DNA from: Candidatus Kapaibacterium sp.
Lineage (GTDB): Bacteria > Bacteroidota > Ignavibacteria > Kapaibacteriales > JAEUSM01
NCBI GenBank assembly: GCA_016788785.1
Contig: JAEUSM010000006.1
Coordinates: 248,001 to 312,000 of the forward strand
DNA: 64,000 bases
Direction of reading: 5' to 3'
Both the position numbers and the translations under genes were made by a program. Positions 1,871 through 35,877 of this stretch are shown piece by piece (within the stretch, counting starts at the first letter, position 1; the number at the start of each line of letters is the position of its first letter). The notes beneath the pieces were generated by a model. It saw nothing but the letters and a program-made list of their open reading frames with translations. It made no database searches and was not told the DNA's origin.

Positions 1871-1874
1871 AAAA

Positions 1875-1906
1875 AAAAGAGGCACATTCAATGAATGTAC
1901 CTCTTT
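1875..1906. terminator. Bidirectional hairpin between pentapeptide gene and tRNA-Arg
   Basis: An interrupted inverted repeat: AAAGAGG (1876-1882) pairs with CCTCTTT (1900-1906), and ACATTCA (1884-1890) with TGAATGT (1892-1898), giving a nearly continuous hairpin with a single mismatch. A poly-A run (1869-1878) lies on the left side, which is a U-tract when read on the minus strand. It directly follows the pentapeptide-repeat stop codon and lies just 3' of the tRNA on the opposite strand, so it can end both transcripts. Confidence 0.65.
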
Positions 1907-1909
1907 ACG

Positions 1910-1983
1910 TACGCCCGAAAGGATTCGAACCTTTGACCCACAGCTTAGAAGGCTGTTGCTCTATCCAGCTGAGCTACGGACGC
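1910..1983 (-). tRNA. tRNA-Arg (anticodon TCT)
   Basis: The minus strand folds into a standard cloverleaf of 74 nt. The acceptor GCGTCCG pairs with CGGGCGT plus discriminator A; the D-arm region is GCTCAGCTGGATAGAGC; the anticodon stem ACAGC/GCTGT encloses the loop CTTCTAA; the T-arm carries TTCGAAT. Bases 3-5 of the anticodon loop (34-36) are TCT, which reads AGA/AGG arginine codons. The 3' CCA is not encoded. A Bacteroidota-type promoter lies immediately upstream at 1995-2026. Confidence 0.95.
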
Positions 1984-1994
1984 AACTTAGAATA

Positions 1995-2026
1995 CAAATA
2001 TACGGTTTTTTCTTGATATTATCAAA
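1995..2026 (-). promoter_or_regulatory. Bacteroidota-type promoter of tRNA-Arg
   Basis: On the minus strand TTTG (forward 2023-2026) is followed after 20 bases by TATATTTG (forward 1995-2002), matching TTTG-N19/20-TAnnTTTG of the Bacteroidota housekeeping sigma factor. The -7 box ends 11 bases before the tRNA 5' end. The local sequence CCGTATATTTGTAT is shared with the tRNA-Ser promoter at 32723-32753. Confidence 0.75.
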
Positions 2027-2042
2027 AACTATGTCCAATTTT

Positions 2043-2249
2043 ATGAAAATATTTTCAGCTTTTCTCTTCATTATTCTTTGTTTTACAACTATCGGATGTG
2101 AAAAATTGAAATATAAAATGGCACAACGGGAAACTCGCCAACAGTATTTCAAAGATTATTTGGATTCTTCACGTAAACAAACCTACAAAAGGAATGATTC
2201 TATTCGACGTGCATTACTTCGACAAGATAGTGTCGCAGCTAATCGATAA
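2043..2249 (+). CDS. Very small charged lipoprotein
   Basis: 68 residues from the ATG at 2043 (an in-frame ATG at 2031 adds four residues). The lipoprotein signal MKIFSAFLFIILCFTTIGC places the lipidation cysteine at residue 19. The rest is a short, strongly charged, probably helical tail rich in Arg, Lys, Gln and Asp, with no recognisable domain. The reading frame stays open back through the tRNA-Arg on the other strand; that upstream part is spurious. The 3' end overlaps the convergent NlpC/P60 gene by 11 bases. Function unknown; an Lpp-like or small anchored peptide is possible, but there is no specific evidence. Confidence 0.6.
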   Translation: MKIFSAFLFIILCFTTIGCEKLKYKMAQRETRQQYFKDYLDSSRKQTYKRNDSIRRALLRQDSVAANR

Positions 2250-2751
2250 CCCGTTTGATTCCAACTAATTTTTGGGAATATGGTTTATCTTCCAAATTCT
2301 GCACAATCACTCCACGAGAAGTGGAAGCATGAATAAATTTGTTATTACCCACATACATTCCAACGTGGGAAATTGGACTGGAAGTAAAGGTAAAAAAGAC
2401 TAAATCTCCTACTTTTGGATTGTCAACCTTTTTCGAAATTGATTCATACTGCTGTGTAGAAGTTCTCGGTAACGAAATACCCACTGCTTTATAGACATTG
2501 CCTACAAATGCAGAACAATCAACCCCATCCATTGACTGACCACCCCATTTATACGGTACACCAATCCAACGTTCTGCTTCTGTAAGTAACTTCTCATAAA
2601 CACCATGTACAGTACCCTTCTCAATGGATATTGGTTGAGAACGACCTTTTTTGATTTGAGTAGTCTCAGTATTTTCACTGGAAAAACGAACTGAAGTACT
2701 ACAAGAAGCCAATAAAACAGTAAGAAAAACGGATATAATAATGTAGTTCAT
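2239..2751 (-). CDS. NlpC/P60-family peptidoglycan endopeptidase lipoprotein
   Basis: 170 residues. A lipoprotein signal with LLASC puts the lipidation cysteine at residue 17. Residues about 50-170 form an NlpC/P60 domain: WIGVPYKWGG, then DGVDCSAF with catalytic Cys79, SHVGMYVG with catalytic His129, and FIHAS with His141 as third polar residue. This family cleaves the D-Glu-DAP or L-Ala-D-Glu bonds of cell-wall stem peptides, and its size is that of the single-domain Spr/MepS-type enzymes. A role in wall growth or turnover at the outer membrane or periplasm is likely. The 3' end overlaps the small convergent lipoprotein by 11 bases. It is divergent from the T9SS gene at 2814. Confidence 0.92.
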   Translation of the reverse strand: MNYIIISVFLTVLLASCSTSVRFSSENTETTQIKKGRSQPISIEKGTVHGVYEKLLTEAERWIGVPYKWGGQSMDGVDCSAFVGNVYKAVGISLPRTSTQQYESISKKVDNPKVGDLVFFTFTSSPISHVGMYVGNNKFIHASTSRGVIVQNLEDKPYSQKLVGIKRVID

Positions 2752-2813
2752 AAATTACCTTCGCTACTTTATAAATTTAAAAGCAAATATTATTCCAAAA
2801 TAGAAAGACCTCT

Positions 2814-4094
2814 ATGAAAATTACTACAATTCTTCTTTTATTCTTCATTCAGATAACTTCTGTATTTGCACAACCTGGTCAAGGTTGGACAGCAATTAAT
2901 ACTGGTAATTCTGACTCCTATCTTGATGTTCATATTGTTAGTCAAAATGAGGCATGGATTGTTGGAACTGGTGGAGTAGTATTGAAATCAAATGGATATA
3001 TTGATTTATTTAATAAGGAAAACATCACGGATTTGGATTCTTCGTATATATTTCGTTCATTCCTAAGTTTAGGTGGTGACAAACGAATTATTGCTGGTGG
3101 TACTAATATTGCAGTTAATATCGTAGGTGGGAATGTTGTCAACCCAAATCGTGTTAGTGCCTTTCTCTCCAATGATGCTGGAGGAAACTGGACTGCTTTC
3201 AATGGAACAGGCGTTACCAGTACAAATCGCTGGATGAGCGATTTGGCTCGACGTGGTGCAACACAAATTTGGGCTCCAGGATACTTTTACAATCCAACGC
3301 AAAAAGTATATCTTTGTAGAATTTTGTATTCTCCAGATTTGGGAACAAATTGGATTCAACACCCAACCATCATTGACAAAAAAATGAACAAAATGGTCTT
3401 TTTGACTGATGAAGTAGGATTAATTTGTGCAGATGCTGGAACGGTAATTAGAACTGTGAATGGTGGTGGTGCTTGGACACAAGTTTCTACAATGACAAAT
3501 CAAGAATTAACAGATATTGTTAAAATCAATGAAACTACTGCTATAGCAGTTGGCAGAAACGGCACAATCGTTAAAACTGTTAATGGTGGCGAAACATGGA
3601 ATTCACTACTATCCAATACTACAAAACATTTGTTTTCAGTAGATTTTGTCAATAGTAATGAAGGTTATATTGCAGGTCAAAGTGGTACATTACTTTACAC
3701 TCAAGATGGTGGTAATACATGGACGTCAAATAATCTACCTACTACTCAAGATTTGAATGCTATTACCGTAACTAAAAGTGAAAATGACAGTTATGCTGCA
3801 ATTGTCGTTGGAAATAATGGTACAGCATTTTGGACACAGATTGCTAAAGTTTCTGTAGCAGAAACTAACCAAAATGACGTTGAAGTATATCCAAACCCAG
3901 TTGAAAAAGTATTACATTTGAATATAACTTCAAACGAAAACTTTACAGTTAGCATTCTTTCTCATTTAGGAACGGAAATGCTTTCTACTGCAAATCAAAC
4001 TTCAATAAACGTCTCTTCATTACCTTCTGGAACATATTACGTTCAAATTTCTACACCGAAAGGAATCCAAAGAAGCCGTTTTGTAAAAATGTAA
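2814..4094 (+). CDS. T9SS-secreted YCF48/BNR-type beta-propeller protein
   Basis: 426 residues. Signal peptide MKITTILLLFFIQITSVFAQ. Residues about 25-350 contain repeated blocks of the type GTxxxTxNGGxxW (for example VNGGGAWTQ, VNGGETWNS, QDGGNTWTS) alternating with GYIAGQ/AIAVGRNG strands. This is the signature of YCF48/BNR propellers, which often act as extracellular binding scaffolds. The last about 75 residues (VYPNPVEKVLHL to the end) form a type A T9SS sorting domain ending in RSRFVKM, so the protein is predicted to be exported through the outer membrane and either surface-attached or released. A strong terminator follows at 4111-4140. Ligand unknown. A degenerate copy of its last codons and terminator is at 6694-6776. 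Confidence 0.85.
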   Translation: MKITTILLLFFIQITSVFAQPGQGWTAINTGNSDSYLDVHIVSQNEAWIVGTGGVVLKSNGYIDLFNKENITDLDSSYIFRSFLSLGGDKRIIAGGTNIAVNIVGGNVVNPNRVSAFLSNDAGGNWTAFNGTGVTSTNRWMSDLARRGATQIWAPGYFYNPTQKVYLCRILYSPDLGTNWIQHPTIIDKKMNKMVFLTDEVGLICADAGTVIRTVNGGGAWTQVSTMTNQELTDIVKINETTAIAVGRNGTIVKTVNGGETWNSLLSNTTKHLFSVDFVNSNEGYIAGQSGTLLYTQDGGNTWTSNNLPTTQDLNAITVTKSENDSYAAIVVGNNGTAFWTQIAKVSVAETNQNDVEVYPNPVEKVLHLNITSNENFTVSILSHLGTEMLSTANQTSINVSSLPSGTYYVQISTPKGIQRSRFVKM

Positions 4095-4145
4095 TCGCCA
4101 TAAACATCATAAAAAAGGGAAGCAATTGCTTCCCTTTTTTGGTTT
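4064..4145 (+). repeat. Direct repeat copy 1: end of T9SS gene plus terminator
   Basis: This segment (last codons IQRSRFVKM-stop and the GGGAAGCAATTGCTTCCC hairpin) is repeated in the same orientation at 6694-6776. The first 17 bases are identical, the middle has diverged, and the hairpin differs by one base. The two copies bracket the paralogous lipoprotein pair 4183-6436. Confidence 0.7.
4111..4140. terminator. Strong bidirectional terminator
   Basis: Six A, the perfect palindrome GGGAAGCAATTGCTTCCC, then six T. It lies 16 bases after the stop of the T9SS gene and also 3' of the minus-strand lipoprotein ending at 4183, so it can stop both transcripts. Confidence 0.9.
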
Positions 4146-4182
4146 GTACTGAAATGCTTTATTTGAATGAATAAACGTCCCC

Positions 4183-5256
4183 CTAATTATTCGTAATCTT
4201 CCTGAGTATATTACCCTTCAAGTCCATTTCGTAGACATTGCCTTTGAGATTGTCGTGATAATGCATACTTGCAATAATTGTATTCATGGGCGTTAACAGA
4301 GCTGTTTTATCATATATGAAGAGACAATGCCTATATCCAGTATTTATCTTTGTTATTTCGGTGAATACTCCGGAAGATGTCCGTAGCTTTTCTACTTCCA
4401 TAATCCACAATTCTCTTCCTCTGGCATTGCTATCTTGTAATACAAAACCTTCAGTTTCTTGAGGAATTACTGTAAACATAACATACCTGTTATCAAATGA
4501 GAAATCAATATTTACAATATTCAAGTAGTTAATGGTATCTTGTAAAGATATCATCTTATCATTCAGATAAAAACTTTTATTATTTCTACTTATGGTATGG
4601 ACTTTGTACTCAAAATTTTTTGAGTATTTACCAATTATTGAATTATCTGATAAAAGAGTTTCGGTCTCTAAATGAAAGAAACTTCTATTAGTAGAACTCC
4701 TTGAAATAAAAAAAACGTTACTATCTTGTTTAGAAGTACCTACCCATTCTATAGATAATATTCCGCTGGTAATATCTCCAAATGATTTTGGTGTGATTAA
4801 CTTGATTTCATTTGAAATTATATCGTGTAAAACAATTTCATCTGTTACAATGTAATTTTTCCCATCTCCTATTGTATCTTTTTGTACTTTTGCAGAAAAA
4901 ACAACAAGATTAGAATTATATGGGCAAAATTTTCTATTTGAATACATAGAAATGTTTTTAATGTTTTGAAATTTTGCTTTGTCAAATTCTATTCTTGACA
5001 CAATACCTGTAGTTAAGTTTAAGTTGTCAAAATATGTATAACTCTTACTTAATATAGATGCATTGATTCCATCATATGAAACAGAATATAGATCAACACT
5101 TTCTGGAAAAGTTAAATCAGAGGGTACAAAATTCTTACAATCAGGGTAGTAAGTGGTGGAATCATCCGGTTTATTGTCTTTTGGGTCTACGATGGTATCG
5201 TTACAAGAAATAGCTAATAATAGCACTAAAACTAATAGATAAATTTGCGTTTTCAT
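4183..5256 (-). CDS. Lipoprotein, probable WD40/TolB-like propeller (second of a tandem pair)
   Basis: 357 residues from the ATG at 5256; an upstream extension is open but this start gives the lipoprotein signal MKTQIYLLVLVLLLAISC with cysteine at residue 18. The beginning SCNDTIVDP and the end (YEMDLKGNILRKITNN) nearly match the upstream gene 5270-6436, so these are tandem duplicates separated by 13 bases. The mature part is rich in Tyr, Ser and Asn, with repeating strands such as SFDNRYVMFTV, ELWIMEVEKL and FTEITKI, reminiscent of TolB/PD40-like propellers that describe a value then a unit (LWxMEVD). No catalytic motif. Likely an envelope lipoprotein; function unknown. Confidence 0.75.
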   Translation of the reverse strand: MKTQIYLLVLVLLLAISCNDTIVDPKDNKPDDSTTYYPDCKNFVPSDLTFPESVDLYSVSYDGINASILSKSYTYFDNLNLTTGIVSRIEFDKAKFQNIKNISMYSNRKFCPYNSNLVVFSAKVQKDTIGDGKNYIVTDEIVLHDIISNEIKLITPKSFGDITSGILSIEWVGTSKQDSNVFFISRSSTNRSFFHLETETLLSDNSIIGKYSKNFEYKVHTISRNNKSFYLNDKMISLQDTINYLNIVNIDFSFDNRYVMFTVIPQETEGFVLQDSNARGRELWIMEVEKLRTSSGVFTEITKINTGYRHCLFIYDKTALLTPMNTIIASMHYHDNLKGNVYEMDLKGNILRKITNN

Positions 5257-5269
5257 AGTGGTTTCCCCG

Positions 5270-6436
5270 TTAATTATTCGTAATCTTCCTAAGAATATTA
5301 CCATTCAAGTCCATTTCGTAGATGTTTGCTTGAGAATTGTTGTAAGGGTGCAACCCAACAATTAAAGTGTTTTGAGGAGTAAAAAAACAACCACTTGTAA
5401 AATAATGACATTCAGTAGTTCGAGGTTTGATTTTTCGTATTTCAGTAAATTCACCTGTAGATGCCATAAGTTTATCCACTTCCATCAGCCAAATTTCTGA
5501 ATTCCTGTACACGTATGTGGGTGTGCCATATTCCCCATTATTAGCTGTTACACCCACAGCTAAATATTTATTATCCTTCGAAAATGAACCGTTCCCAACT
5601 GCTTTTATAAGCAAAGAATCTTCAAGAAATACCTCTTTGTCATTCAAATAAAACAAGTAAGGTTCTTTCCAATTCCCATTTCCAGATTTGTAAAAGCGAT
5701 ACTGTCCATCTCCACTAATGATAGTGTTTGTTAAGTCTTTGATTGAATTTGTTTCTTCAAGTCTATCTTCTTGTAGATGATAAATATATGTTATTTTATT
5801 TGGATGAATAATGAGAAATTTATCATTCCCTTCTGATGATGTTGATAACCATTGACAAACTAATTGAATTCCAGTTTGATGACGTATACCCCATTTCCCA
5901 AATATCGATGGAGTAATCTTTTCCATTTCCATTGTTTGAATATTATAAGTAAAATAATTATAAAAGCTATAAAGATTTTTCTTATCTCCGATAGTATCAA
6001 TATCACATCTTGCTACAATGTTTATAATATTGCTATTATATGGACAGAATGAAAATCTACCAAATACTAACATTCTGTCGTATTCAGGAAATTGAAGTGT
6101 GTCAAATTCTATTGCACTTCCTGTTGCACCCAGTTTTCCATTTTCATTCCCACCAACAAGTATGTATTCACCTGTTTGTAGATTAAGAAGAAATCGGCTT
6201 GCTATTGTAACAACACTTTTTCCATCAAAATGTTTACGAATTACTGCAAATTTTCCATCGTGGGAAACCGAAAAAAGTTCATCATAGACTGGATCATAAT
6301 ACTTTTCATAGTCATAATTTGGACAATCGGGATAGGTGGTATCTTCATCTATCGGTTCTTTCGGGTCTACGATCGTTTCGTTGCAGGATGATACCACTAA
6401 TAGTAGCAAAGCAATTAAAAACAAATGTGTTTTCAT
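5270..6436 (-). CDS. Lipoprotein, probable WD40/TolB-like propeller (first of a tandem pair)
   Basis: 388 residues. Lipoprotein signal MKTHLFLIALLLLVVSSC with lipidation cysteine at residue 18, followed by NETIVDPKEP and an Asp/Thr/Pro-rich linker. Strand-turn repeats follow (LFSVSHDGKFAVI, NKYLAVGV, EIWLMEVDKL) and the C-terminus YEMDLNGNILRKITNN is shared with the downstream copy. The SHDGKFA and SKDNKYLA motifs are typical of PD40/WD40-like strands, supporting a propeller fold by inference. It starts the leftward pair that ends at the terminator 4111-4140. The 357-base gap upstream holds a T9SS-gene tail remnant and no obvious promoter match. Function unknown. Confidence 0.75.
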   Translation of the reverse strand: MKTHLFLIALLLLVVSSCNETIVDPKEPIDEDTTYPDCPNYDYEKYYDPVYDELFSVSHDGKFAVIRKHFDGKSVVTIASRFLLNLQTGEYILVGGNENGKLGATGSAIEFDTLQFPEYDRMLVFGRFSFCPYNSNIINIVARCDIDTIGDKKNLYSFYNYFTYNIQTMEMEKITPSIFGKWGIRHQTGIQLVCQWLSTSSEGNDKFLIIHPNKITYIYHLQEDRLEETNSIKDLTNTIISGDGQYRFYKSGNGNWKEPYLFYLNDKEVFLEDSLLIKAVGNGSFSKDNKYLAVGVTANNGEYGTPTYVYRNSEIWLMEVDKLMASTGEFTEIRKIKPRTTECHYFTSGCFFTPQNTLIVGLHPYNNSQANIYEMDLNGNILRKITNN

Positions 6437-6693
6437 AGTGATTTCCTTCTTATAGCATTATTGCAAATTTGGTATGTAAAAAATTCCCTTTTGAGGTTGT
6501 GAAGAAGGGTGATTGTAAACAGTGTTTTTTTGAGATTTATTTAATGTAAAAGAATGTGACATTTTAGAGCCTTGAAAGGGTATTAACTACAGGAGTTTTA
6601 TTAAACATAACCTTATTTCCTTTAAGTACCAAATATTTTTTTAAACGTACGATACTACATAGAGATAAATTCTTCGGATTATCAATAATTTAT

Positions 6694-6776
6694 AATCCAA
6701 AGAAGCCGTTATGTGAAACTGTAATAACAATACATATGTAATAAAAAAGGGAAGCATTTGCTTCCCTTTTTTTGTT
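6694..6776 (+). pseudogene. Remnant of a T9SS gene tail plus terminator (direct repeat copy 2)
   Basis: In the plus-strand frame the sequence reads IIQRSRYVKL-stop, matching GIQRSRFVKM-stop at the end of the T9SS protein 2814-4094. About 25 bases later it carries the same poly-A / GGGAAGC..GCTTCCC / poly-T hairpin. An in-frame stop lies two codons before the match, so no open gene precedes it. It is either the relic of a second copy of that gene or one end of a duplication that arose when the lipoprotein pair 4183-6436 came to lie between the copies. Confidence 0.65.
6743..6773. terminator. Bidirectional terminator, near-copy of 4111-4140
   Basis: Six A, hairpin GGGAAGC-ATTT-GCTTCCC, then seven T. 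One base differs from the terminator at 4111-4140. It lies 3' of the leftward alpha-2-macroglobulin gene that ends at 6794 and probably terminates that transcript; rightward there is only the gene remnant. Confidence 0.85.
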
Positions 6777-6793
6777 TGATGTATTAGCTGTTT

Positions 6794-9700
6794 CTATTGA
6801 ATGGAAAGTCGACCTGCTCCATTATACGAACGATAGTTTCCGTTGTACATCGCATCTGCCATCACAGGACCCATTGTGAAGGTTCCTTTCGAAACTGCTC
6901 GACACAATATGTAGATGTTTTTCACTTTTCCATCTGCAGTAACAAAGAAACTTACGCGGTCATCTCGAATATCCATATTGTCAACTGGTGCCGCATCTTT
7001 AATCCAATCAAGTCCTTGAACTGCACTAATTCGCGGATTTTCGATTTCCAATCCTGCTGGAAGAAGATCTGTCAATACGACATTATTCACAACACTTTTA
7101 TCATTGGTTGCAAGGCTGTACCGAATAACAATAAGGTCATTTTGTTTGAGAGAGTTCAAAGAAATTTGTGACCCATTGCGGTTGAAAAACGACTTTCTTG
7201 CTTGTAAGTACGAATCGATATCTTTGCTTGGAGACATTCCAATTCCTGAAGTTTCCCACGAATAATATAATTGACCTTTACCAGAAGTAGTGATTTTGAC
7301 CATTTTAGAATTTTCTAACCCATTCTTCAAAATCAAATCCTGTCCAGAGGTAAAATCAGCAACCTTTTTACCATCAATTTCGATAGATGCTGTCAGTGAA
7401 CTTTCACCCAAAGAACGAGAGTATTTCCCCAATGCCATCAATGCAAACGAGACCTCTTGCGTATGTAAAAACCCTGCTTTTTTCATTTGTTCTGATAAAT
7501 GGCGAACCAATTCAACCACTTGTTGATTAGAAGGGTCCACATCAACAAGACAACTTAATGCAAGTGCTTGATCACGAACAAATGATGAGAAACTACCAGA
7601 AAATTCTTGTACAGGAATATCGTTTGAGAATTTTGACGGCAATAATTCACTATAATTTGCATTATCACCAAGCAATTTATAGGTAACTGCTAACAAATAT
7701 TTCGAATCATCGGTAAGTAAGTTTTTATTCGATTTGAGATAGTTCATTGTCGACACTTCACGTTTTTGGTCTAACGCTAAAATGTACAATGAATATGCTA
7801 CTTCACGAGGAATGTATTCACCTTTTTTGATGTTTTGATTATTGATAAAGCGATATTCTACTAAGGTGGATATTTTCAAACGTCTTGTTAAATACTCCAA
7901 TGCCTTATCTAACACCATTCTATTCACTTGAAAACCAGCTTTTTCCGCTTCCAAAAGGAACTGACACGCATAAATTGATGACCACCAATGCTCTTGTGTA
8001 CCACCTTGCCAATAGTAAAATCCACCACTATATGATTGCATTGATTCCACTTTTCGAATTGCTTCTTGTACATTATCCGATGGGCTTGAAGATACAAGTC
8101 GAGTTGATTTTAATGCTCTTGATAAATCTGCAAAATACATTTGTGCAAATCCAGTCGAAATTGTTTGCTCTAAACATCCATACGGATAGGAAACCAACAT
8201 TGACAAATCTTTGCAGAATTGAGCAATTGGAGAATTTGATACCAATAATTTACGTTCTTCCGTACCTTTTACATACGGAGCTACCATCTCAAATGATTCG
8301 GTATTTCCTGCTGAAATAACACCATTTCCAGAAACTTTTTGAAGTGAAGATGCAGGTCGAACAGCTATATTTAACGAATCAATATAGGAATCTGAACCAG
8401 AATTTACCACCACTTGTAACGATGCTTCACCAATTTCATCGGTTGATGCACAAGTAAACGAGGCAATTTGTTCAGCCTTTCCATCAATTGACATTGAATT
8501 TGTCGAAGTGGAAAGTACTTTAATTGGTCCTTGTGTATTGATTTGCACTGAAACATTCTTTTTGTCTGTTGTTGTGTTTGTAACAATTACAGGTAAAGAG
8601 AAGGTGTCTTTTGGACTTAAAAATCTTGGCAAAGCTGTTGAAAGAACTAATGGATCTGCAACAACAATTGAGGCTTCAGCACCACCCATTGTTTTATCGT
8701 TGTATGCAACTGCCATTACTCGGAGAGTTCCAGAAAATTGCGGAACTTTGAAACTATACGTTGCTTTTCCATTTGCGTCAGTTCTCAAAACACCAGACCA
8801 AAACGTGACCAAATTTACTCGCTTATTGGTAATTGGATTGACACGACGAGAAAAATCTCCATCACCACCACCAAAACTAATTTTCCCAACAACAAATTCT
8901 GGATAGAGGAATTTATACATATCAAATGATTCGACAGTCAATGCACGTTTTTGAAAAAAGAAATCAAATGGATTTGGACTGACAAAGTTTTTCACTTGCA
9001 AAACCCCTTCATCAACAATTGCGACTGTTACTTCAGAATTTGGCTTTGCATTTACAGTTACTGTTTGCATGGTGTTTGCACGTGATGTTTTAGGAGCATC
9101 AACAGCAACATTCATTTTATAGGTTGTTTGGGACACATTGATATTATGATAACCATGAGCTACCGTTAATGGAATATCAGATTCTTGATGTGGTTTGATG
9201 AGAGTTGTCGAAATATACACATTCGGTGCAAATCCCTCTTTGATTGGTAATGATAGGGAAGCTGCACGATTGTCAGTTTGTAACACAAAACTTTCCATAA
9301 TATTATTGCGTTCCACAGTGACCAACAATTTCCCTTTAAATGGAGTTTTGAATAACAAATTCGCTGTTTCACCAACGGAATAAGTTTCTTTGTCGGAAAC
9401 AATAGTAACTTGACCTTCTTTGTTTACTTCAAAGGAAGATAAATCCGTAGTGCCATAATTATATGCATAAAAACTATAGTACGCATATCGAGATGCACCT
9501 GGTCGTTTGATTCGAATTTCATAATCACCAGATTGAACTACATTAACTGGCATTGTTGTTCCTGTTCCGCTTATAGCCATTGTTTTTTCAAACAAGATAT
9601 CTTCTTTCGTTTGAGAAACATAACGATAGCCTTCGTCATAACCGCGTTCTAACACAGTATTCCAACGTTTACGAACTAATTGTACCGTTGCTTGAACATT

Positions 9701-12217
9701 ATTAAGTGTTGCACCGTTTTTATCTAAAGCGATGATAGGAACAGAGAATTTCGTATTTGTTGAAATATACCGTTCAAACATTTTGATTCCAAAAAATGCA
9801 TCTTGAGTAATCACATTGAATGTTTCTAATCTATTTACTGGTCGTGACGTTTCGTCAAAAACAGTGATATAGGCTTTTCCTTGCAACACACCAACATCTG
9901 CATATTCTTTTGGAATTGTTATTTCTTCTACGAATGTTCCATCATCCTTAGTTTTTCCAGTTTTGAATGTATTTTCAAAATACATTGAATTATCATTGTT
10001 AATGGAAAAATCATAATCGGAATAAAACTTTGGAGCAAAGGTACTTTTTCTGAAGTTAACTGAAACTTCATACGGTCTATTCGCAGCTGCGGTCCCGTAA
10101 AAATTCATTACGGAAGCTTTAACTTGAATAGATTTTCCCGGTACAACTTCAGTTGAACTAAGTGAAGGTGTAACTTTAATTCTATCTGGTAAAAACTCTT
10201 CCACAGAAATTGGTTCAGAGGCTAAGAGAATCTCATTGGAACTATAAACTTCAACAGTGTAAGTTCCAGTTCTCATAGAAGCTGGAAGTGGAATATTTGT
10301 TTCAGTAGCACCAAATTCGTTCAATGTTTTTTTGTACGAACTAAACTCTTTTCCGTTAGGGTCAATGAATTTTAACACTACCGGAATATTTGGAACTACT
10401 TGATGTTGTTCATTACGAACAATCACATTAGAATGATAGGTTTCTCCTGGTCTATAGATATTTCTATCACCATACACATAGGCAATCATACCAGAAGCAT
10501 TTCCTGATAATCCATTGGTTTCATATCGAGCAGTCTCAACCCTCATACGTGAATTAAGCAGTAAAAACGTAAAGTCATTTTCACTTCTTGCTGTTACCAT
10601 ACCAGGTTTAAAATAGGTGCCACGAGCTTGTAAATTACTGAAGGTTGCAACACCTTTTGCATCTGTTTTTGCTGAGAAGAGTTCCTGATTAGAAGTAGAA
10701 AACACCTTAATTGTTATTCCTGCTAAAGGTTCTGCAGTGTTTAAAGAATTTGCAAACACCGTTAAAGAATTTTCACCTTGTTTTGCAATGAGTCCAACAT
10801 CAGAAAGAGAAACAATTTGAGTAGAACGTTGCCATAAATCCTCACTAGATTGAATTCGAACGACATACATTCCCTTCATATCGCTCATATCATTCATATC
10901 AAAATTCAAAAGCGATATACCGTTTCCAGCTTGAGGGAGTGATGAAGTTTCGAATGTTTTTTCAGAAACAACATCACCATAATCTGTTGCATCTATATAG
11001 CCAAAATCACCCATTGATTGTATCATTCCCTCTTCGGTATATTGATACTTTTGAGCATCTCTCATATAATGGATGATGTTATTTTCGTAAATCTTTGAAA
11101 TAGTTAATTTTGCTTTCGGTACATTTACGATTCGAGTTGCGATGTTTTTTGCGCCTTTTTTACTCAAATATCCTGAGCTAGAATTCACAAATTGAATAGT
11201 AGAAGGAATAGAACCAAACGAAATGGATTTTCCATAACGTTCTTTCAATTTTCCTCCCAAAATTCCTTTAAAAAGTGTATCATTAATTGTCAAATAATAC
11301 TCATAACCAGGCTGAAAATCACCCAAAAGTGCAATACCATCCTCTGTTTGTTTTGCCGTGAATTTCACTTGGGGATCAATTCCTATAACAGAGCCCACTA
11401 CAGCTGGTAAAAGAATTTCAGGTGCAATACTTTGTGAAGTTTTGATAGTAATCTGACCATTTGTTCCATCATAACTACCGTCGACTGATAAAATCTCTAA
11501 CTCATTTTTGTTCGTTATAGAAGTTTGGGTAACAATTTTTTCTTTCGTTAAGGAAGTACTTTCGTGTGCCTTTATACCTTCTTGGATTGTAAATTCAAAG
11601 TTATTGTCAGAAAAAGAATCAGCATTGATTGCTAAAAGTACATGGTTATCTATAGTAGTTGAAAGTAACTGAAAGGGAACATTCGCACCACCTGATGTAA
11701 CGGAAATTTTTTGAGAAATTTCGTTTGGATTCACTGGATAATTGAATGTTAGGGATGCTTTTACAAATCCTTTTGTCGATACTGTTGGTGAAGATGACCA
11801 AATTGTTTCTGAAGAAACTAATTTTAACAACGGAGTATTAAAAGCAATAGATTCGGATTTAACTGCAACTTGTTGTTGTTTTTTATCTAAAAATCGAGTA
11901 ATTTTATCCGTTACTACAGCAGAATATTCTGTTGAATTTCGTAATTTACTTGAAGGAGAAAAAAGGAGTTCTTTCGAAGAAATCCATCGAAATGAACCTG
12001 GGATTGGAGGGTTGAAAGTAATATATTCTGTAGAATCCCAAAGATTTAACTTTTCTTCGGGAGCCAAATCCTTATCAAATTTGAATACAAAATTTTGTTT
12101 CTGATTTACTTCTTTTCCAAAGTTCGTTTCGACTAAAGAAACAGTATTTGGAGTTGAGCAAGAAACAAAGAGAATCAACAACCCTACAAATGTCGAAATG
12201 AGTAATCGAATTTTCAT
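6794..12217 (-). CDS. Bacterial alpha-2-macroglobulin family lipoprotein
   Basis: 1807 residues. Lipoprotein signal with LFVSC and lipidation cysteine at residue 20, so it is membrane-anchored in the periplasm. The long N-terminal part holds repeated macroglobulin-like (MG) sandwich domains, including the signature YRPGETYHSNVIVRN near the MG2 region. The central A2M domain at about residues 1130-1210 has WSGVLRTDANGKATYSF followed by FSGTLRVMAVAY. The thioester motif CLEQ is intact with Cys1348, in the all-helical TED region (YPYGCLEQT). The thioester traps attacking proteases covalently after bait cleavage, protecting the envelope. The usual partner pbpC (PBP1C) is not adjacent; the neighbour 75 bases upstream is a small HMA protein. 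Length is at the upper end of the bacterial family. Confidence 0.93.
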   Translation of the reverse strand: MKIRLLISTFVGLLILFVSCSTPNTVSLVETNFGKEVNQKQNFVFKFDKDLAPEEKLNLWDSTEYITFNPPIPGSFRWISSKELLFSPSSKLRNSTEYSAVVTDKITRFLDKKQQQVAVKSESIAFNTPLLKLVSSETIWSSSPTVSTKGFVKASLTFNYPVNPNEISQKISVTSGGANVPFQLLSTTIDNHVLLAINADSFSDNNFEFTIQEGIKAHESTSLTKEKIVTQTSITNKNELEILSVDGSYDGTNGQITIKTSQSIAPEILLPAVVGSVIGIDPQVKFTAKQTEDGIALLGDFQPGYEYYLTINDTLFKGILGGKLKERYGKSISFGSIPSTIQFVNSSSGYLSKKGAKNIATRIVNVPKAKLTISKIYENNIIHYMRDAQKYQYTEEGMIQSMGDFGYIDATDYGDVVSEKTFETSSLPQAGNGISLLNFDMNDMSDMKGMYVVRIQSSEDLWQRSTQIVSLSDVGLIAKQGENSLTVFANSLNTAEPLAGITIKVFSTSNQELFSAKTDAKGVATFSNLQARGTYFKPGMVTARSENDFTFLLLNSRMRVETARYETNGLSGNASGMIAYVYGDRNIYRPGETYHSNVIVRNEQHQVVPNIPVVLKFIDPNGKEFSSYKKTLNEFGATETNIPLPASMRTGTYTVEVYSSNEILLASEPISVEEFLPDRIKVTPSLSSTEVVPGKSIQVKASVMNFYGTAAANRPYEVSVNFRKSTFAPKFYSDYDFSINNDNSMYFENTFKTGKTKDDGTFVEEITIPKEYADVGVLQGKAYITVFDETSRPVNRLETFNVITQDAFFGIKMFERYISTNTKFSVPIIALDKNGATLNNVQATVQLVRKRWNTVLERGYDEGYRYVSQTKEDILFEKTMAISGTGTTMPVNVVQSGDYEIRIKRPGASRYAYYSFYAYNYGTTDLSSFEVNKEGQVTIVSDKETYSVGETANLLFKTPFKGKLLVTVERNNIMESFVLQTDNRAASLSLPIKEGFAPNVYISTTLIKPHQESDIPLTVAHGYHNINVSQTTYKMNVAVDAPKTSRANTMQTVTVNAKPNSEVTVAIVDEGVLQVKNFVSPNPFDFFFQKRALTVESFDMYKFLYPEFVVGKISFGGGDGDFSRRVNPITNKRVNLVTFWSGVLRTDANGKATYSFKVPQFSGTLRVMAVAYNDKTMGGAEASIVVADPLVLSTALPRFLSPKDTFSLPVIVTNTTTDKKNVSVQINTQGPIKVLSTSTNSMSIDGKAEQIASFTCASTDEIGEASLQVVVNSGSDSYIDSLNIAVRPASSLQKVSGNGVISAGNTESFEMVAPYVKGTEERKLLVSNSPIAQFCKDLSMLVSYPYGCLEQTISTGFAQMYFADLSRALKSTRLVSSSPSDNVQEAIRKVESMQSYSGGFYYWQGGTQEHWWSSIYACQFLLEAEKAGFQVNRMVLDKALEYLTRRLKISTLVEYRFINNQNIKKGEYIPREVAYSLYILALDQKREVSTMNYLKSNKNLLTDDSKYLLAVTYKLLGDNANYSELLPSKFSNDIPVQEFSGSFSSFVRDQALALSCLVDVDPSNQQVVELVRHLSEQMKKAGFLHTQEVSFALMALGKYSRSLGESSLTASIEIDGKKVADFTSGQDLILKNGLENSKMVKITTSGKGQLYYSWETSGIGMSPSKDIDSYLQARKSFFNRNGSQISLNSLKQNDLIVIRYSLATNDKSVVNNVVLTDLLPAGLEIENPRISAVQGLDWIKDAAPVDNMDIRDDRVSFFVTADGKVKNIYILCRAVSKGTFTMGPVMADAMYNGNYRSYNGAGRLSIQ

Positions 12218-29338: not shown

Positions 29339-29434
29339 ATAGATTTTCTTCCATTTACCACTTGCAATTAAAATAATTTCACTATTTTAGTTGAAGAATT
29401 GTGTCTTTTACTTCATTTTGTCATTGGAGGCGTT

Positions 29435-31003
29435 ATGGTTTCATTACGATTTACTTTTATTCTAGCCATTTTTGTGTTCGGATTTTCGAGTGCTTTTTCA
29501 CAAAAAGGCTCTCCAGCCTTTTTTAATTACGGTGGTCTTGATAACACTACGAACAAAATTTGGCTCCAATTTCAACCACCACAAGTTCAAACTTTTCTTT
29601 ATCATACCCTTGAAGAGTCTTCTGAATTAACAAGATTAGATGCAATTACTGAAAAACTTACCTTACAAAACTTTGAATCTTTCTCGTATTTTATTAGTGG
29701 AAAACATAGTGGTGAATTGTATACTGCTCATCAATTTTTTTGCTTTGATAATATCTACATCCTTCCTCTAAATTTTGGAATTCTTCCAGATATAGGGGAT
29801 ACAAACATGTTCGTTCAACTGAATAATAAATTTTATGATTTTAAAAATATAATTGGTTATTACGATATTGAAAAGTATATGTCATATACCAGAGAATGGT
29901 TTCAACAAAACAAGGGGAGTTATATACTTTTTAATGTATATCCATGGAATAATGACACAACAGAAATTGCTAACTTCAGACCACTTGAAGAAGATCAAAT
30001 TTTATCGAATTCCGGTTTAGTATCAAAAACCATAGGAACTTCTTTACAATTACAAAATAAGACTTATTATACAACACACAACACCGTAATTATAAATCAT
30101 AAGGGAGAAAACATCCCCATTTCTTCAATTTTAGAAGAGGATTTTGTTGAAATTAGTTATATAGTCTACATGAAGAAAAACCTTGCTTTGAAAATAACAA
30201 AACTTGAAAAACCCTTTGGTGTTTTACGTTATTCGGAGGATATTCAGCGAATTAGTGGTGATACGATTTATACGACAACTCATAAAATTCTAAAATCTGG
30301 AATAACAAAATTTCAAAATACTATTGGCTTGGAAACAGATGAAAGTTCATTTGTAAAAAATTCAGCTGCTATAACATTTACAAAATATAATCAGCATATT
30401 GTTAGTTCTTCTTTAGATCAAACCCCTTTCGTTTTAACCACACACGCGTACAATAACAGTAGTAATTCAATATATAAAGGTACTGTTTTTGGAAGAGTTA
30501 CAAATCAAAACTGGTCAGATATTTCATTAGGAAATAACACCTATACGACCAATGACCAAACAATGGTTCAATTACAAGACGGAAAAATATATCAAATTAA
30601 TCAATTATCATTACAACCCAATGAATTAGTAAAAATTTCCTATTTTATCGATAATGAAAAAGATTCATTGAAACCAGTTGTTTCGATGGTAAGCATTATA
30701 GATACTACAGTCTATACTTCAATTACGAACCAAAAAAATCTATTTGGTATAGAAGTATTCCCACATCCAGTGACTTCAAATCAAACTTCACTTCAGTATT
30801 ATTCAGAGCATGAGAATGTTGTAACTGTAACAGTCTATTCAATCGATGGTATTATTCAAACACAATCAAAACATAATGTTGTAAACGGAACAAATTCTAT
30901 TAATATTGATTGTTCAAAATTACCTACAGGTTCTTATTTTGTTAAAATAGTTGAATCTGTAAATTCTCCTTCAATTTCAATTCCATTACAAATTGTTCGA
31001 TAA
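29435..31003 (+). CDS. T9SS-secreted protein of a local paralogous pair (first copy)
   Basis: 522 residues from the ATG at 29435, chosen because GGAGG lies five bases before it; an open extension exists upstream. Signal peptide VSLRFTFILAIFVFGFSSAFSQ. The body shows blocks shared with the next gene: RYSEDIQRISGDTIYTTTH and YKGTVFGR followed by LGNNTYTTND. The second block resembles the OB-like DUF5666 strand pattern, which is inference. The C-terminal about 75 residues (EVFPHPVTSNQTSL, LPTGSYFVKIVES) are a T9SS sorting domain. Extracellular or surface localisation is predicted; function unknown. The gap to the second copy is only 35 bases, so they are probably co-transcribed. Confidence 0.78.
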   Translation: MVSLRFTFILAIFVFGFSSAFSQKGSPAFFNYGGLDNTTNKIWLQFQPPQVQTFLYHTLEESSELTRLDAITEKLTLQNFESFSYFISGKHSGELYTAHQFFCFDNIYILPLNFGILPDIGDTNMFVQLNNKFYDFKNIIGYYDIEKYMSYTREWFQQNKGSYILFNVYPWNNDTTEIANFRPLEEDQILSNSGLVSKTIGTSLQLQNKTYYTTHNTVIINHKGENIPISSILEEDFVEISYIVYMKKNLALKITKLEKPFGVLRYSEDIQRISGDTIYTTTHKILKSGITKFQNTIGLETDESSFVKNSAAITFTKYNQHIVSSSLDQTPFVLTTHAYNNSSNSIYKGTVFGRVTNQNWSDISLGNNTYTTNDQTMVQLQDGKIYQINQLSLQPNELVKISYFIDNEKDSLKPVVSMVSIIDTTVYTSITNQKNLFGIEVFPHPVTSNQTSLQYYSEHENVVTVTVYSIDGIIQTQSKHNVVNGTNSINIDCSKLPTGSYFVKIVESVNSPSISIPLQIVR

Positions 31004-31038
31004 TGTTTGTATGATTAACTTAATTATGTGAGGTATTT

Positions 31039-32655
31039 ATGAAAACTATGTTTCTATTTTGTGTTGTAAATTTATTCATTGTTTTTCAATTCGGAATGGC
31101 TCAAATTGCTATAAAAACACAAAGCAAGCCTGATATTCTTTATTTGTTTGTTTTCAATGTTACAGATAGTTCTTTTGAAACATACGATATTCTAACAGAT
31201 CAATCAATATCTTATCCAATTACAAACAATACAGTTTTAAAAATGTTAGATGGAACACTTCATACTCCTACTAAGTCAAAAATTGAAACACATGGAGGTT
31301 ATAAGTTTACTTTTTTTTCTGAATCAAACAATGCAAATGCAGACACGTTAGAACAAGTATTTATGTTAGGAAGTATTTCATTTAATTCTGAATTATGTTT
31401 TGGCATTTTAAATTCAACTTCAGATAATTCCAAAATTAAAAAGCTTGATAATACTGAGATTGATTTTCCTATTTTTAGCAGTACTTTGTATTATCCATTT
31501 TATAGTGAACTAACAAGTGATTGGTTTTCTAAAAACATCGGAACATATTTATTCTATGGAACTCGATTTTACTCATTTGATAATAAGACTGTTATAGGCT
31601 ATAGAAAACTTCCCAATAACAAAATTCAAAATTTCAAAGGTAAAATATCTCTTATCAATGGAAAAGAATTTATAATCTTTGGTAAATCCGTATTTATCTC
31701 ACCATCAACTAAATTTTACGATTCTTTTGGTAATTCCCTTATTTTAGATGATTTTTCTGTAAATGATATAATTGACATTGATTTCACTCATTACGATATA
31801 GAATCACAAAATGATTATTATAAAGCAACGAACATCAACAAATACATCGCTCTTCGCATTACAAAATTGCCTCACAAGGAAGAAATAAATCGATATTCTG
31901 AGGATGTAATTAAAGTGTCAAATGATACTATTTATACCACTTCGCATTTTCTAAAATTAAGTTCTGTTCAATCCAAAAAGGACGTGAATGGAGATGATAT
32001 AACTACAGATTCACTGTTTGCTCATTACCGAGCTGTTACTTTTGAAGTTTCGAGTAATGAAAATAGAAATGAAATTCGAAACGTAGATTTTCTTCATGTA
32101 ACGTTTAACCAAAAAGACAGTTTGCACTATCGTGGTACTGCAATTGGACGAATTAACTCGATACAATTTCCCAATTTATCTGTCGGAGCGAATCAATATA
32201 TTGTCGCAAATGATGCAAAAATTCGCAACAAATTTGGTGATTCGACTATTGCAAACGAGACTACTATTCCTAACAACGCTTTAGTAAAGTTGTTTTACTC
32301 AAGGGTTGAAAATGGAAATACAATTGACTTTGTAGTGAATTTTATTGCATTGGAAGATACGAGTACTTTTTCATCTGTTTTCGAACCAAAGGCCAATGTT
32401 CTTTCCGTCTTTCCAAATCCAATAACCAACGACCAAACGATGATTGAATTTGAAAGTGATGTTGATGAAATGATTCAGTTGAATATCGTATCCATAAATG
32501 GGAAAACGATACAATCACAAAATGTTAACGTTAACAATGGTATTAATACCATTATTACCAATTTGAAATCTATACCAAACGGACAATATTTCCTTGAAAT
32601 AGTTTCTTCAAACAACAAAAAACGATATTCGACACCAATTCAGTTAATGAGGTGA
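31039..32655 (+). CDS. T9SS-secreted protein of a local paralogous pair (second copy)
   Basis: 538 residues. Signal peptide MKTMFLFCVVNLFIVFQFGMAQ. The shared blocks with the upstream gene are NRYSEDVIKVSNDTIYTTSH near residue 290, and YRGTAIGRINS with LSVGANQYIVANDAKI near 375-400. The T9SS sorting domain is the last about 75 residues (SVFPNPITNDQTMIEFE to SIPNGQYFLEIV). The middle is a poorly conserved beta-rich domain with many Tyr, Asn and Ser. GAGG lies eight bases before the ATG. Function unknown; the pair is predicted to be exported and surface-associated. No terminator hairpin is visible before the tRNA-Ser promoter. Confidence 0.78.
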   Translation: MKTMFLFCVVNLFIVFQFGMAQIAIKTQSKPDILYLFVFNVTDSSFETYDILTDQSISYPITNNTVLKMLDGTLHTPTKSKIETHGGYKFTFFSESNNANADTLEQVFMLGSISFNSELCFGILNSTSDNSKIKKLDNTEIDFPIFSSTLYYPFYSELTSDWFSKNIGTYLFYGTRFYSFDNKTVIGYRKLPNNKIQNFKGKISLINGKEFIIFGKSVFISPSTKFYDSFGNSLILDDFSVNDIIDIDFTHYDIESQNDYYKATNINKYIALRITKLPHKEEINRYSEDVIKVSNDTIYTTSHFLKLSSVQSKKDVNGDDITTDSLFAHYRAVTFEVSSNENRNEIRNVDFLHVTFNQKDSLHYRGTAIGRINSIQFPNLSVGANQYIVANDAKIRNKFGDSTIANETTIPNNALVKLFYSRVENGNTIDFVVNFIALEDTSTFSSVFEPKANVLSVFPNPITNDQTMIEFESDVDEMIQLNIVSINGKTIQSQNVNVNNGINTIITNLKSIPNGQYFLEIVSSNNKKRYSTPIQLMR

Positions 32656-32768: not shown

Positions 32769-32853
32769 GGAGAGTTCGCATAATGGTATTGCAGCGGTCT
32801 TGAAAACCGCCGTGAGAAATCACATGAGAGTTCGAGTCCCTCACTCTCCGCCA
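32769..32853 (+). tRNA. tRNA-Ser (anticodon TGA), CCA encoded
   Basis: 85 nt. The acceptor GGAGAGT pairs with ACTCTCC, then discriminator G and an encoded CCA. The anticodon stem GCGGT/ACCGC encloses CTTGAAA, giving anticodon TGA. The long variable arm (GTGA-GAAA-TCAC) marks a class II tRNA. The D-stem is short (GCA/TGC) and the T-stem GAGAG/CCCTC has one A-C mismatch, so it is slightly irregular. It reads UCA/UCG serine codons. Confidence 0.9.
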
Positions 32854-32982: not shown

Positions 32983-33765
32983 ATGAAAATGAAAAACATC
33001 ATCTTTTTATTCGCATTATCAGTTATAGCACTTTCTTCTTGCTCTGATGATAAAACTCCTACCGATCCAGGTGGAGATACAAATTCAGCCTTACTTCCTT
33101 CTACTGTAGGCTCCTATTGGATTAATACCAACGTAGAAACAACACCTCCACCAAACCCAGCTCCAGATGAAGATACAAGAACTACAGATTCTTCAGTAGT
33201 TATTGGAAATAGTACTTATCAAGGTAGACAAGCAACTTCTGTTGTATATTATGTGAATGGAGCTGTAGCTGAAACAACTTATTACAACCAAAATTCGAAT
33301 GAATTATTCTCTTACACATCAGGAATTCAAACTGATTTCTTCAGTTTACCTGCTGGATGGGTGAAATTGGCAGATTATACTGCAACTTCATGGAAACCAT
33401 TTCCAGATACTACATTAGTAGATAATCCAATCACCTTTCAAGGAATAAACGCAGTTGTCAACGGAACTGTTACTTCTAACTCTACAAGAGGTGGTACTTC
33501 TACCGTTACTATAGATAATAAATCTTATACCGCCACCCAATTTACTTCGACAATTTCTATGAATTTACGTGCAACGGCAATGTTTGGACCTCAACCAATT
33601 GAAATACCTTTAAAATTTGATATTGTTTCGAGAGTTCAGCACGTTAAAGGTATTGGAGTTGTCTCTGCAATAACTGACGGATTTAATGTTAGTGCTGGTT
33701 CTTTTGGATCATTTCCTTCCAACGGAAATCAAACAACCCTTCTTAGATTCAAGATTAATCCGTAA
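32983..33765 (+). CDS. Lipoprotein, paralogue of the gene at 34867
   Basis: 260 residues. Lipoprotein signal MKMKNIIFLFALSVIALSSC with lipidation cysteine at residue 20, then a Thr/Pro/Asp-rich linker. The mature part shares with the gene at 34867-35877 the opening LPSTVGSYWI (there FPKTLGNYWI), TYYNQ / SYYSQ, LPAGWVKLADY / LPRRWVKIADF and IVSRVQHVKGIGVV / TSRETIWFVNKIGIV. The core of about 220 residues is therefore a shared beta-rich lipoprotein domain. It is followed by the first 58-bp direct repeat, which holds its terminator. Function unknown; an outer-membrane or periplasmic anchor is inferred. Confidence 0.75.
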   Translation: MKMKNIIFLFALSVIALSSCSDDKTPTDPGGDTNSALLPSTVGSYWINTNVETTPPPNPAPDEDTRTTDSSVVIGNSTYQGRQATSVVYYVNGAVAETTYYNQNSNELFSYTSGIQTDFFSLPAGWVKLADYTATSWKPFPDTTLVDNPITFQGINAVVNGTVTSNSTRGGTSTVTIDNKSYTATQFTSTISMNLRATAMFGPQPIEIPLKFDIVSRVQHVKGIGVVSAITDGFNVSAGSFGSFPSNGNQTTLLRFKINP

Positions 33766-33791: not shown

Positions 33792-33849
33792 AAAACCTCA
33801 CACCATAATGTGAGGTTTTTTTGTATCTTTGAAGAAATAGTTATTGAAA
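33792..33849 (+). repeat. 58-bp perfect direct repeat, left copy (terminator plus -7 box)
   Basis: Identical over 58 bases to 34795-34852, exactly 1003 bases away. It holds the terminator hairpin CCTCAC-ACCATAAT-GTGAGG with seven T, followed by TATCTTTG (33824-33831), a match to TAnnTTTG. The two copies bracket the gene 33888-34736. Confidence 0.9.
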
Positions 33850-33887
33850 TTATTTTATTTTCTTAATTTAGTAAATCAAAAGTTGAA

Positions 33888-34736
33888 ATGGAGCATTTAC
33901 TTTTACCTTTAAGGAAAGACCTAGAATGTCTTTACGAGAATAACTTTGTTGAAAATGCATTAAACTTAAATAAATCATTAGGTTCAAGTTTTTTAACTAA
34001 TGTTATACCTATGTATTTTACAGGACAATTTGATGCTAAAACTGTTTTTGTTATGTTAAATCCTGGAGATGGAAACGCTGTAGAAAGTTTCCTAACTGTA
34101 CATAAAGGTAAATTCAAGAATCTTGAAGAATTTATAATAGAAGAAATAAATTCTAAGATATGCTATGGCAGAATTGATAGGAAACGACTTGATAGTTTTG
34201 ATTTAAAACAAGCAGCTTTTTTAAGTAATTTTGAGGAAAGTGGAATATATATACCAGAACATTTTTGGGAAAAAGATATTTGTACAAAATATACAGCAAA
34301 AGAAAATGTATTAATGCAAAAGTTACAATTAGAATTGATTCCCTATGCTTCAAATACATTTAACCTCTTTAAAAATTTGAATGAAGCAATAAAGCATATT
34401 GAAAAATTTGAAAATCATATCTTTAGGATATTTGACTCTATTTTTGAATATGAAAGAAAATTTGTAATTTTTGGTTCTAAACAATTCTATAATATTTTCA
34501 AAACCCTTTCTGAAAAGTATCAAGATATAGTTTCTATTGACTTTGGAAACTTAAATATCGAAAAAATTCCAAATTTAAGTAAAAGAGTATCTTTTAGAAA
34601 CATTAAAATTCGTTATTTCAACAAATCTGTTAATGCATTAATTGCTAACTCATTCCCGAGGAGAGATTTACCTAATGCTTATCCTCAAATGAGTTTATAC
34701 GGAAGACTTTGTTTTCAGAATTATGGAAACATCTGA
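33888..34736 (+). CDS. Unrecognised AT-rich gene in a direct-repeat-bounded insertion (possible UDG-like fold)
   Basis: 282 residues, no signal peptide or membrane segment. The gene is visibly richer in A and T than its neighbours and does not belong to the surrounding lipoprotein family. Features seen: a strand followed by MLNPGDGNA near residue 60, LELIPYAS near 150, a strand KFVIFGSKQF near 190 that leads into a helix, and the conserved-looking SFPRRDLPNAYPQM near the C-terminus. The NPG after a buried strand, the IPYAS and the late Pro-rich loop recall uracil-DNA-glycosylase-like folds, but this is only inference and no catalytic residue is assured. It lies between two perfect 58-bp repeats, suggesting recent arrival by transfer or duplication. 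Could be a defence or DNA-repair accessory gene. Confidence 0.6.
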   Translation: MEHLLLPLRKDLECLYENNFVENALNLNKSLGSSFLTNVIPMYFTGQFDAKTVFVMLNPGDGNAVESFLTVHKGKFKNLEEFIIEEINSKICYGRIDRKRLDSFDLKQAAFLSNFEESGIYIPEHFWEKDICTKYTAKENVLMQKLQLELIPYASNTFNLFKNLNEAIKHIEKFENHIFRIFDSIFEYERKFVIFGSKQFYNIFKTLSEKYQDIVSIDFGNLNIEKIPNLSKRVSFRNIKIRYFNKSVNALIANSFPRRDLPNAYPQMSLYGRLCFQNYGNI

Positions 34737-34794
34737 ATTTTGTTTGGTTTGTTTTTACGAATCCAATTAGTTCAAGAAAATCACATAAAATTAA

Positions 34795-34852
34795 AAAACC
34801 TCACACCATAATGTGAGGTTTTTTTGTATCTTTGAAGAAATAGTTATTGAAA
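34795..34852 (+). repeat. 58-bp perfect direct repeat, right copy (terminator plus -7 box)
   Basis: Second identical copy of 33792-33849. It supplies a terminator for the inserted gene (hairpin, then seven T) and a TATCTTTG box (34827-34834) 32 bases before the GTG at 34867. Before insertion one copy would have served between the two paralogous lipoproteins. Confidence 0.9.
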
Positions 34853-34866: not shown

Positions 34867-35877
34867 GTGAAGTATTTTCTCCTTTCAATTCTCGTTTTGT
34901 TTATTTTGAACGGTTGTTCGGACGAACCAACTGCGGTTAACGGTGACAAAATTCAGTTGTTTGTTACTCCAAAACAAGCAGTAGTTTCAGCGGGATCGAC
35001 GTTTCAATTGAGGGCAGAATATCCATTTGATGTGAATCATCAACTGATTTGGAGTGTAACAAGAGGTCCTGGGGCAGTCACTAATCAGGGAATATACATT
35101 GCTCCTGGGTTTTTGGTTTTTAGCTCTGATACTGCCATCGTTACGTGCTTTTCATCAACTGATTTGACAGTAAAGGATAGTGCAATCATTATAATCACTC
35201 CTCAATCAGGGTTTGATTATTTTCCAAAAACACTTGGTAATTACTGGATTTACGAACGATTTACTATCGATTCGAATAACAACGAGCTTCCAGCTTCTCG
35301 TCAAGTAGATTCATTAGTCATCAAATATACGCCAAAAATATTAGGATATGATGCGATTGGTTTGCAAACCTACCGAGGTGGAACAAGGGTGAATGATACC
35401 AGTTATTATTCACAAATTGGTCCGATTCTGTATCAATATCGCTCTCCTATTAACTTTCCGTTGATTCAATTACCACGTCGCTGGGTGAAAATTGCAGATT
35501 TTGTGGGCGGAGGATGGTCAGTATTTGATACAACACTTAATAATGCTTCTATTTCAGGACTTCCATTCACTGTTACGGGAACCATACAAGCAAATGCAAT
35601 ACGAACTCCTAACGAGCAAATTACAGTCAGTGGAAACCAATATACATCACAAAAAGTTGTTATATCAACCATTTATAATATCACGTTGAATCAACAGTTT
35701 TTGCCCATTCCAATTACATTCAACACAACTTCACGAGAGACAATTTGGTTTGTAAATAAGATTGGAATTGTAAAAAGTGAAGTAACCTCTGCAAGAATTG
35801 CCATTCCAATTATTGGAAATATTGGAATTGATGGCAGTAGAAGAAATCTTTTACGATACAATGTTGCAGAAGAATGA
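34867..35877 (+). CDS. Lipoprotein with N-terminal Ig-like domain, paralogue of the gene at 32983
   Basis: 336 residues from a GTG start. Lipoprotein signal with ILNGC, lipidation cysteine at residue 17. Residues about 28-110 look like a bacterial Ig-like domain (IQLFVTPKQAVVSAGSTF, then WSVTRGPGAVT). The C-terminal about 220 residues are the domain shared with the lipoprotein at 32983 (YFPKTLGNYWI, WVKIADF, FVNKIGIVKSE). It has this extra N-terminal domain that the shorter paralogue lacks. The stop overlaps the flippase start (ATGA), so these two are translationally coupled. Function unknown. Confidence 0.78.
   Translation: MKYFLLSILVLFILNGCSDEPTAVNGDKIQLFVTPKQAVVSAGSTFQLRAEYPFDVNHQLIWSVTRGPGAVTNQGIYIAPGFLVFSSDTAIVTCFSSTDLTVKDSAIIIITPQSGFDYFPKTLGNYWIYERFTIDSNNNELPASRQVDSLVIKYTPKILGYDAIGLQTYRGGTRVNDTSYYSQIGPILYQYRSPINFPLIQLPRRWVKIADFVGGGWSVFDTTLNNASISGLPFTVTGTIQANAIRTPNEQITVSGNQYTSQKVVISTIYNITLNQQFLPIPITFNTTSRETIWFVNKIGIVKSEVTSARIAIPIIGNIGIDGSRRNLLRYNVAEE

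Follow-up and report, generated by a model that had tools for sequence, protein, structure and literature searches.

A probably horizontally acquired gene with a predicted UDG-superfamily fold between duplicated 58-bp terminators in a Candidatus Kapaibacterium genome

The window analysed here, a 64,000-nt stretch of a Candidatus Kapaibacterium genome, contains a lone gene lodged between two lipoprotein genes and bounded on each side by the same 58-bp terminator/leader junction. The gene is probably horizontally acquired, and its family moves between phyla. Structure prediction indicates that its product is a DNA-glycosylase-like protein of the UDG superfamily.

All features of the locus lie on the forward strand. 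Lipoprotein A (260 aa) is encoded at 32983..33765, and its paralogue lipoprotein B (336 aa, GTG start) at 34867..35877. In the first repeat copy, R1 (33792..33849, 58 bp), the hairpin that terminates lipoprotein A is accompanied by a T tract, TATCTTTG and a leader. The identical second copy, R2 (34795..34852, 58 bp), provides the terminator behind the inserted gene and the leader of lipoprotein B. The segment between them (33850..34794, 945 bp) is unique in the genome and holds one gene (33888..34736), with 38 bp ahead of the start codon and 58 bp behind the stop. The encoded protein (282 aa) contains LNPG at residues 57-60 and KLQLELIP at residues 145-152. A first-pass annotation had described the gene as AT-rich, and the GC content of the ORF was indeed 26.4%, the fourth lowest of 185 genes (mean 33.9%, sd 2.9). 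The paralogy of the two lipoproteins, claimed at the same time, was borne out (29% identity, E 5e-23). A standard insertion sequence had been ruled out for lack of a transposase and of inverted repeats. Consistently, the glycosylase ORF was the sole ORF in the insert, no inverted-repeat pair was found at the insert borders except the hairpins themselves, and no integrase or other recombinase gene adjoined the insert. Further upstream, at 29399-32655 of the window, two neighbouring proteins of similar size are encoded, the second with a C-terminal T9SS sorting domain (Por_Secre_tail) and the first with an end that looks alike by eye; a tRNA-Ser lies behind them (32769-32853).

The 58-bp direct repeat is exact, as had been noted: it extends by 0 bases further to the left, ends after 58 bases on the right, and its two starts are 1003 bp apart. 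No other exact direct repeat of the 64-kb window exceeded 21 bp, and the one after that measured 20 bp. The genome (18 contigs totalling 2.97 Mb, completeness 99.45%) contains exactly two copies, and a search with a 39-nt core that tolerated up to 3 mismatches found just the R1 and R2 sites. A search for the 1003-base unit elsewhere in the genome, as earlier proposed, returned its single occurrence. As a control, 211 ORFs in a 304-kb sample of the same genome were scored for a direct repeat common to both flanks. The window ORF scored 58.5 and the next best 14.5 in the version used, in which the flanks did not overlap the ORF. When the flanks reached 40 bp into the ORF, some other ORFs of the same genome scored 37-44; these are probably adjacent paralogues. 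Each repeat copy had also been said to carry a complete terminator hairpin. Both hairpins resemble intrinsic terminators (11 and 13 pairs, with a T tract), and their folding energies (-13.9 and -15.6 kcal/mol) were never matched by shuffled sequences. The proposed promoter fared less well. TATCTTTG, which matches the Bacteroidota -7 consensus, is present in both copies (33824-33831 and 34827-34834), but no TTG was found at the usual -33 spacing, and a promoter in the repeat is for this reason only weakly indicated. TANNTTTG was modestly commoner upstream of genes in this genome (1.26 vs 0.72 per kb). The perfect identity of R1 and R2 is compatible with a recent event; local gene conversion may also account for it.

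The nearest kin available for comparison of the locus belong to the same order. One such relative carries three tandem lipoproteins of the same family, separated by spacers of 28 and 18 bp, with no insert. This gene-free tandem, together with the hairpin-bracketed homologues described below, supports the earlier reading that a foreign gene was inserted at the terminator/leader junction, which is now doubled.

Searches of the window protein against Pfam, PADLOC, NCBIfam and PDB sequences gave no match, and those against PHROGs gave matches at noise level only. An AlphaFold2 model was built on 11 aligned homologues (pLDDT 92.3, pTM 0.91). All 50 entries listed by VIA-align for this model were UDG4, UdgX, TDG or other UDGs (Z 8.4-10.2 over 153-182 residues). 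Foldseek matches were weak, with thymine-DNA glycosylase (TDG) first (E 6e-3) and UdgX also present. The viral structure library returned weak matches only, including phage proteins named uracil-DNA glycosylase. The window protein thus has its predicted fold and an NPG motif in common with UDG4, UdgX and TDG/MUG, but differs from them by an identity of 5-12% over aligned residues and by the lack of a Pfam UDG match; the hhalign comparison of the family profile with ordinary UDGs was not significant (E 0.12) and covered the motif A region only. LNPG comes where the first core strand of the model ends, and TDG/MUG carry NPG after this strand. Brig3 likewise has NP where the first core strand stops, in the form of N50-P51-S52 at the corresponding place, and N50 is required for defence (PMC13160076). 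Brig1 uses E147 on the strand where UDG4 has an Asn (PMC11078745). The conserved Glu149 (QLEL) of the window protein would lie on the same strand as E147, an equivalence taken from the order of the elements and not from superposed coordinates.

The family is patchily distributed. A single-sequence search of the genome contig, viral contig and phage collections found no homologue. With tblastn against plasmids, a full-length relative (32%) was found on the 6.5-kb Psychrobacter plasmid pA14P1, and an alignment of this relative with the window protein, used as the query, led to 13 loci among genome contigs. They come from Flavobacteriia and Sphingobacteriales MAGs (43-47% identity), rumen Bacteroidales, Treponema/Spirochaetaceae and a Psychrobacter chromosome. 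A second Psychrobacter plasmid carries a further homologue, and one of the Flavobacteriia genomes has an additional copy; about 15 homologues were found in all, in Bacteroidota, Spirochaetota and Gammaproteobacteria. None of 394 further genomes in the phylum yielded a real homologue; the best apparent matches that were checked (L035, L038 and L039) turned out to be unrelated proteins. The conserved blocks are DAKTVFVMLNPG, FDLKQAAFL, VLMQKLQLELIPY-S, ER-YVIFG and the C-terminal IA-SF ... M--YG--CF. In the tree, the window protein grouped with Flavobacteriia (85/92), and the rumen Treponema/spirochaete and Bacteroidales sequences were intermixed, not separated. At one locus (L063), a YifB/ComM gene is split by a 9-kb island (385-10832) with two tyrosine integrases and the glycosylase homologue; the same genome holds a second homologue (L167). 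Another homologue (L073:4974-5956) is split over two frames. We regard the family as new within a known fold and previously unclassified; it probably adds a variant to the anti-phage or base-excision glycosylases.

Two UDG-superfamily glycosylases, Brig1 and Brig3, excise modified cytosines of T-even phage DNA, and the resulting abasic sites stop replication (PMC11078745, PMC13160076). They are like the window protein, as modelled, in the superfamily fold, in having UDG4 as the best structural match and in their accessory distribution, a likeness by description and not by sequence comparison. The UDG of S. tokodaii was matched by Brig1 with a DALI Z of 9.2 (PMC11078745) and by the window model with a VIA-align Z of 10.2. 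The Brig genes differ in being reported from defence islands and in not being bracketed by duplicated terminators. Window neighbours were scanned by Pfam and homologue loci by PADLOC. PADLOC gave no defence-family match for the window gene itself, and in two homologue loci it gave candidates, PDC-S13 in L064 and PDC-S26 in L067, with weaker matches in L071 and L073. We consider it somewhat more likely than not that the window gene is an anti-phage glycosylase with a Brig-like role, judging from the fold, the accessory and AT-rich character of the gene, its homologues on small plasmids and in an integrase island, and the defence candidates that are sometimes nearby. The gene could instead encode a base-excision repair or housekeeping glycosylase of unusual sequence without a defence role. 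The UDG fold would suit this as well, and the defence role is itself reached by inference. However, the genome carries a separate ordinary UDG (G000:C4:19329-19766), so the window gene would not be the housekeeping repair enzyme, and the patchy distribution, the plasmid and island locations and the extreme AT content also argue against such a role, which we consider rather unlikely. At a distance of a few kb from the glycosylase homologue of L064 there is a second UDG-like gene (L064:272-1162), whose Pfam match (E 1e-4) narrowly misses the cut-off of the family.

Repeats similar in arrangement to R1 and R2 were found at other homologues. At the Psychrobacter chromosomal locus (L074), a 40-nt hairpin repeat (90%) flanks the gene on both sides. 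All three genomic copies of this hairpin element belong to the array dnaJ-T-gene-T-Sel1A-T-Sel1B. In the other readable Psychrobacter dnaJ loci, dnaJ is followed by a different terminator, and the recognisable next gene is dapB. A terminator of this usual type is still present in L074, ahead of dapB, so the whole array is an insertion. The L074 hairpin is not dnaJ's own terminator, so it may predate the insert or have arrived with it. As a side observation, the terminator behind dnaJ in the Psychrobacter loci L093-L121 usually has the palindrome TTTCACGTGAAA or a variant of it (TTTCATGTGAAA, TTTCACATGAAA) in the stem. At a spirochaete locus (L068), the repeat is about 36 nt long, and its 18-nt core occurs twice in 2.4 Mb, both times beside the glycosylase gene. 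On a plasmid (L061), the final codons of the upstream gene recur in decayed form 3' of the glycosylase gene. With the window included, 4 of 14 homologue loci were bracketed, compared with none of 210 other ORFs of this genome (p 1e-5). Without the window, 3 of 13 homologues were bracketed, and adenylate-kinase loci gave none among 84 ORFs (p 0.002). When the other ORFs of the homologue loci, which are accessory neighbours, served as the reference (5 of about 87 bracketed), p was only 0.07, and 10 of the 14 homologues had no detectable bracketing repeat. Since these accessory neighbours are bracketed as well, the repeats mark landing places of such genes and are not private to the glycosylase family.

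Several genes near the homologues showed related arrangements. A PDC-S26-like PD-(D/E)XK nuclease gene (L067:3831-4916), which directly precedes the glycosylase homologue, is enclosed by two copies of its upstream gene's zinc-ribbon 3' end (53 nt, 79%). A Bro-N gene matching PDC-S13 (L064:2166-3044, E 4e-134) has repeats at 1953-2068 and 3139-3434, and it adjoins an incomplete second copy of a neighbouring 419-aa gene's 3' end, in which 65 nt match at 97% and the following 42 nt at 93%. A homologue of this 419-aa gene (32% identity) adjoins the glycosylase gene in L066.

To account for the locus, we propose that a horizontally acquired single glycosylase-like gene entered between two tandem lipoprotein genes and left one 58-bp terminator/leader junction on each side. 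Lipoprotein A would retain its terminator and lipoprotein B its leader, and the new gene would acquire a leader ahead of it and a terminator after it. The insertion would be tolerated and kept because a junction copy on both sides lets every gene keep or gain a terminator. The unit may have spread by homologous recombination of incoming DNA at the repeat, for instance of a gene-plus-repeat circle or of transforming DNA with the repeat, and it may be lost precisely through recombination between the 58-bp copies. No dedicated enzyme would be needed, because both entry and loss would run through homologous recombination at a repeat that is already carried. The protein would then excise a non-canonical base, most likely of invading phage DNA, and the abasic sites would block phage replication by the mechanism known for Brig1 and Brig3. 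Taken as a whole, this account of an acquired UDG-superfamily gene, a doubled junction, an anti-phage role and recombination-based spread is the one towards which we lean on balance.

Other origins of the repeats were weighed against it. R1 and R2 could be a long target-site duplication, made by an unfamiliar recombinase or by staggered-break repair on a captured single-gene fragment. Perfect direct repeats stand exactly at the insert borders without terminal inverted repeats, and the inserts are single CDSs with short flanks in several cases, as such an event would produce. On the other hand, the repeat length varies by case (about 36, 40, 46 or more, and 58 nt), and no recombinase gene lies beside the window insert. 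Ku, and hence classical NHEJ, is missing from this genome and from ten others, so capture by NHEJ at staggered breaks is disfavoured and was set aside. Target-site duplication is in our judgement improbable. We give no more credit to the idea that the repeats arose by tandem duplication in the lipoprotein array, or by gene conversion between terminators, and that the gene slipped in later. The lipoproteins are tandem paralogues, relatives have tandem sets, and the Psychrobacter hairpin is also repeated ahead of the second Sel1 paralogue; yet the paralogues are 29% identical against 58/58 for the repeat, and a third repeat copy is missing from the genome. An assembly artefact, to which nothing more than the perfect identity of the copies points, is highly implausible, given that 58 bp is shorter than usual reads, that unique sequence lies on both sides within a 645-kb contig, and that comparable bracketing occurs in unrelated assemblies.

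Bracketing repeats were also looked for at PDC-S13 genes. In a first count, 6 of 28 PDC-S13 loci were bracketed, compared with 0 of 30 adenylate kinase genes. After inspection, L134 and L136 were rejected as dispersed intergenic repeats and L142 as an incomplete tandem copy of the PDC-S13 gene, and just L130, L151 and L152 stayed plausible. Because only these three are left and the result is thus mixed, we do not claim that all single defence genes share a general mechanism. The repeats that flank the PDC-S13 genes in L134 and L136 (genus g85) are dispersed around GTATCGAGGCGC / GATACGCGCTTTGCGCTACTC and seem to belong to a repeat family of this genus. That a transposase-free route lodges single defence-type genes between duplicated terminators or gene 3' ends in several phyla, with the UDG-like family as one passenger, is a speculative and rather doubtful reading.

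Two known mobile systems resemble the window unit in part. Minimal mobile elements of Neisseria are exchanged via their flanking genes. Like the window unit, they place one accessory gene between two conserved genes without a transposase or integrase, but the duplicated borders, which are the feature of the window unit, are not known to be part of their definition. Integron gene cassettes are likewise single genes bounded by foldable direct repeats of about 60 bp. They differ in that the window repeat is a terminator hairpin plus leader with just two copies in the genome, and no attC core sites were seen in it by eye. Our narrow literature search found nothing relevant on single-gene insertions between duplicated terminators, an absence that proves little.

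The identity of the gene, a putative UDG-superfamily member that crosses phyla, is the more informative half of the finding, and the earlier reading had left the gene unnamed. This identification gives a name to a family that moves among Bacteroidota, spirochaetes and Psychrobacter and is a promising candidate for a further type of anti-phage DNA glycosylase. The doubling of the terminator offers a concrete and testable model in which a lone gene is added without harming its neighbours and is removable by simple recombination. If the transposase-free route is true, self-insulated and precisely reversible one-gene cassettes would exist in several phyla.
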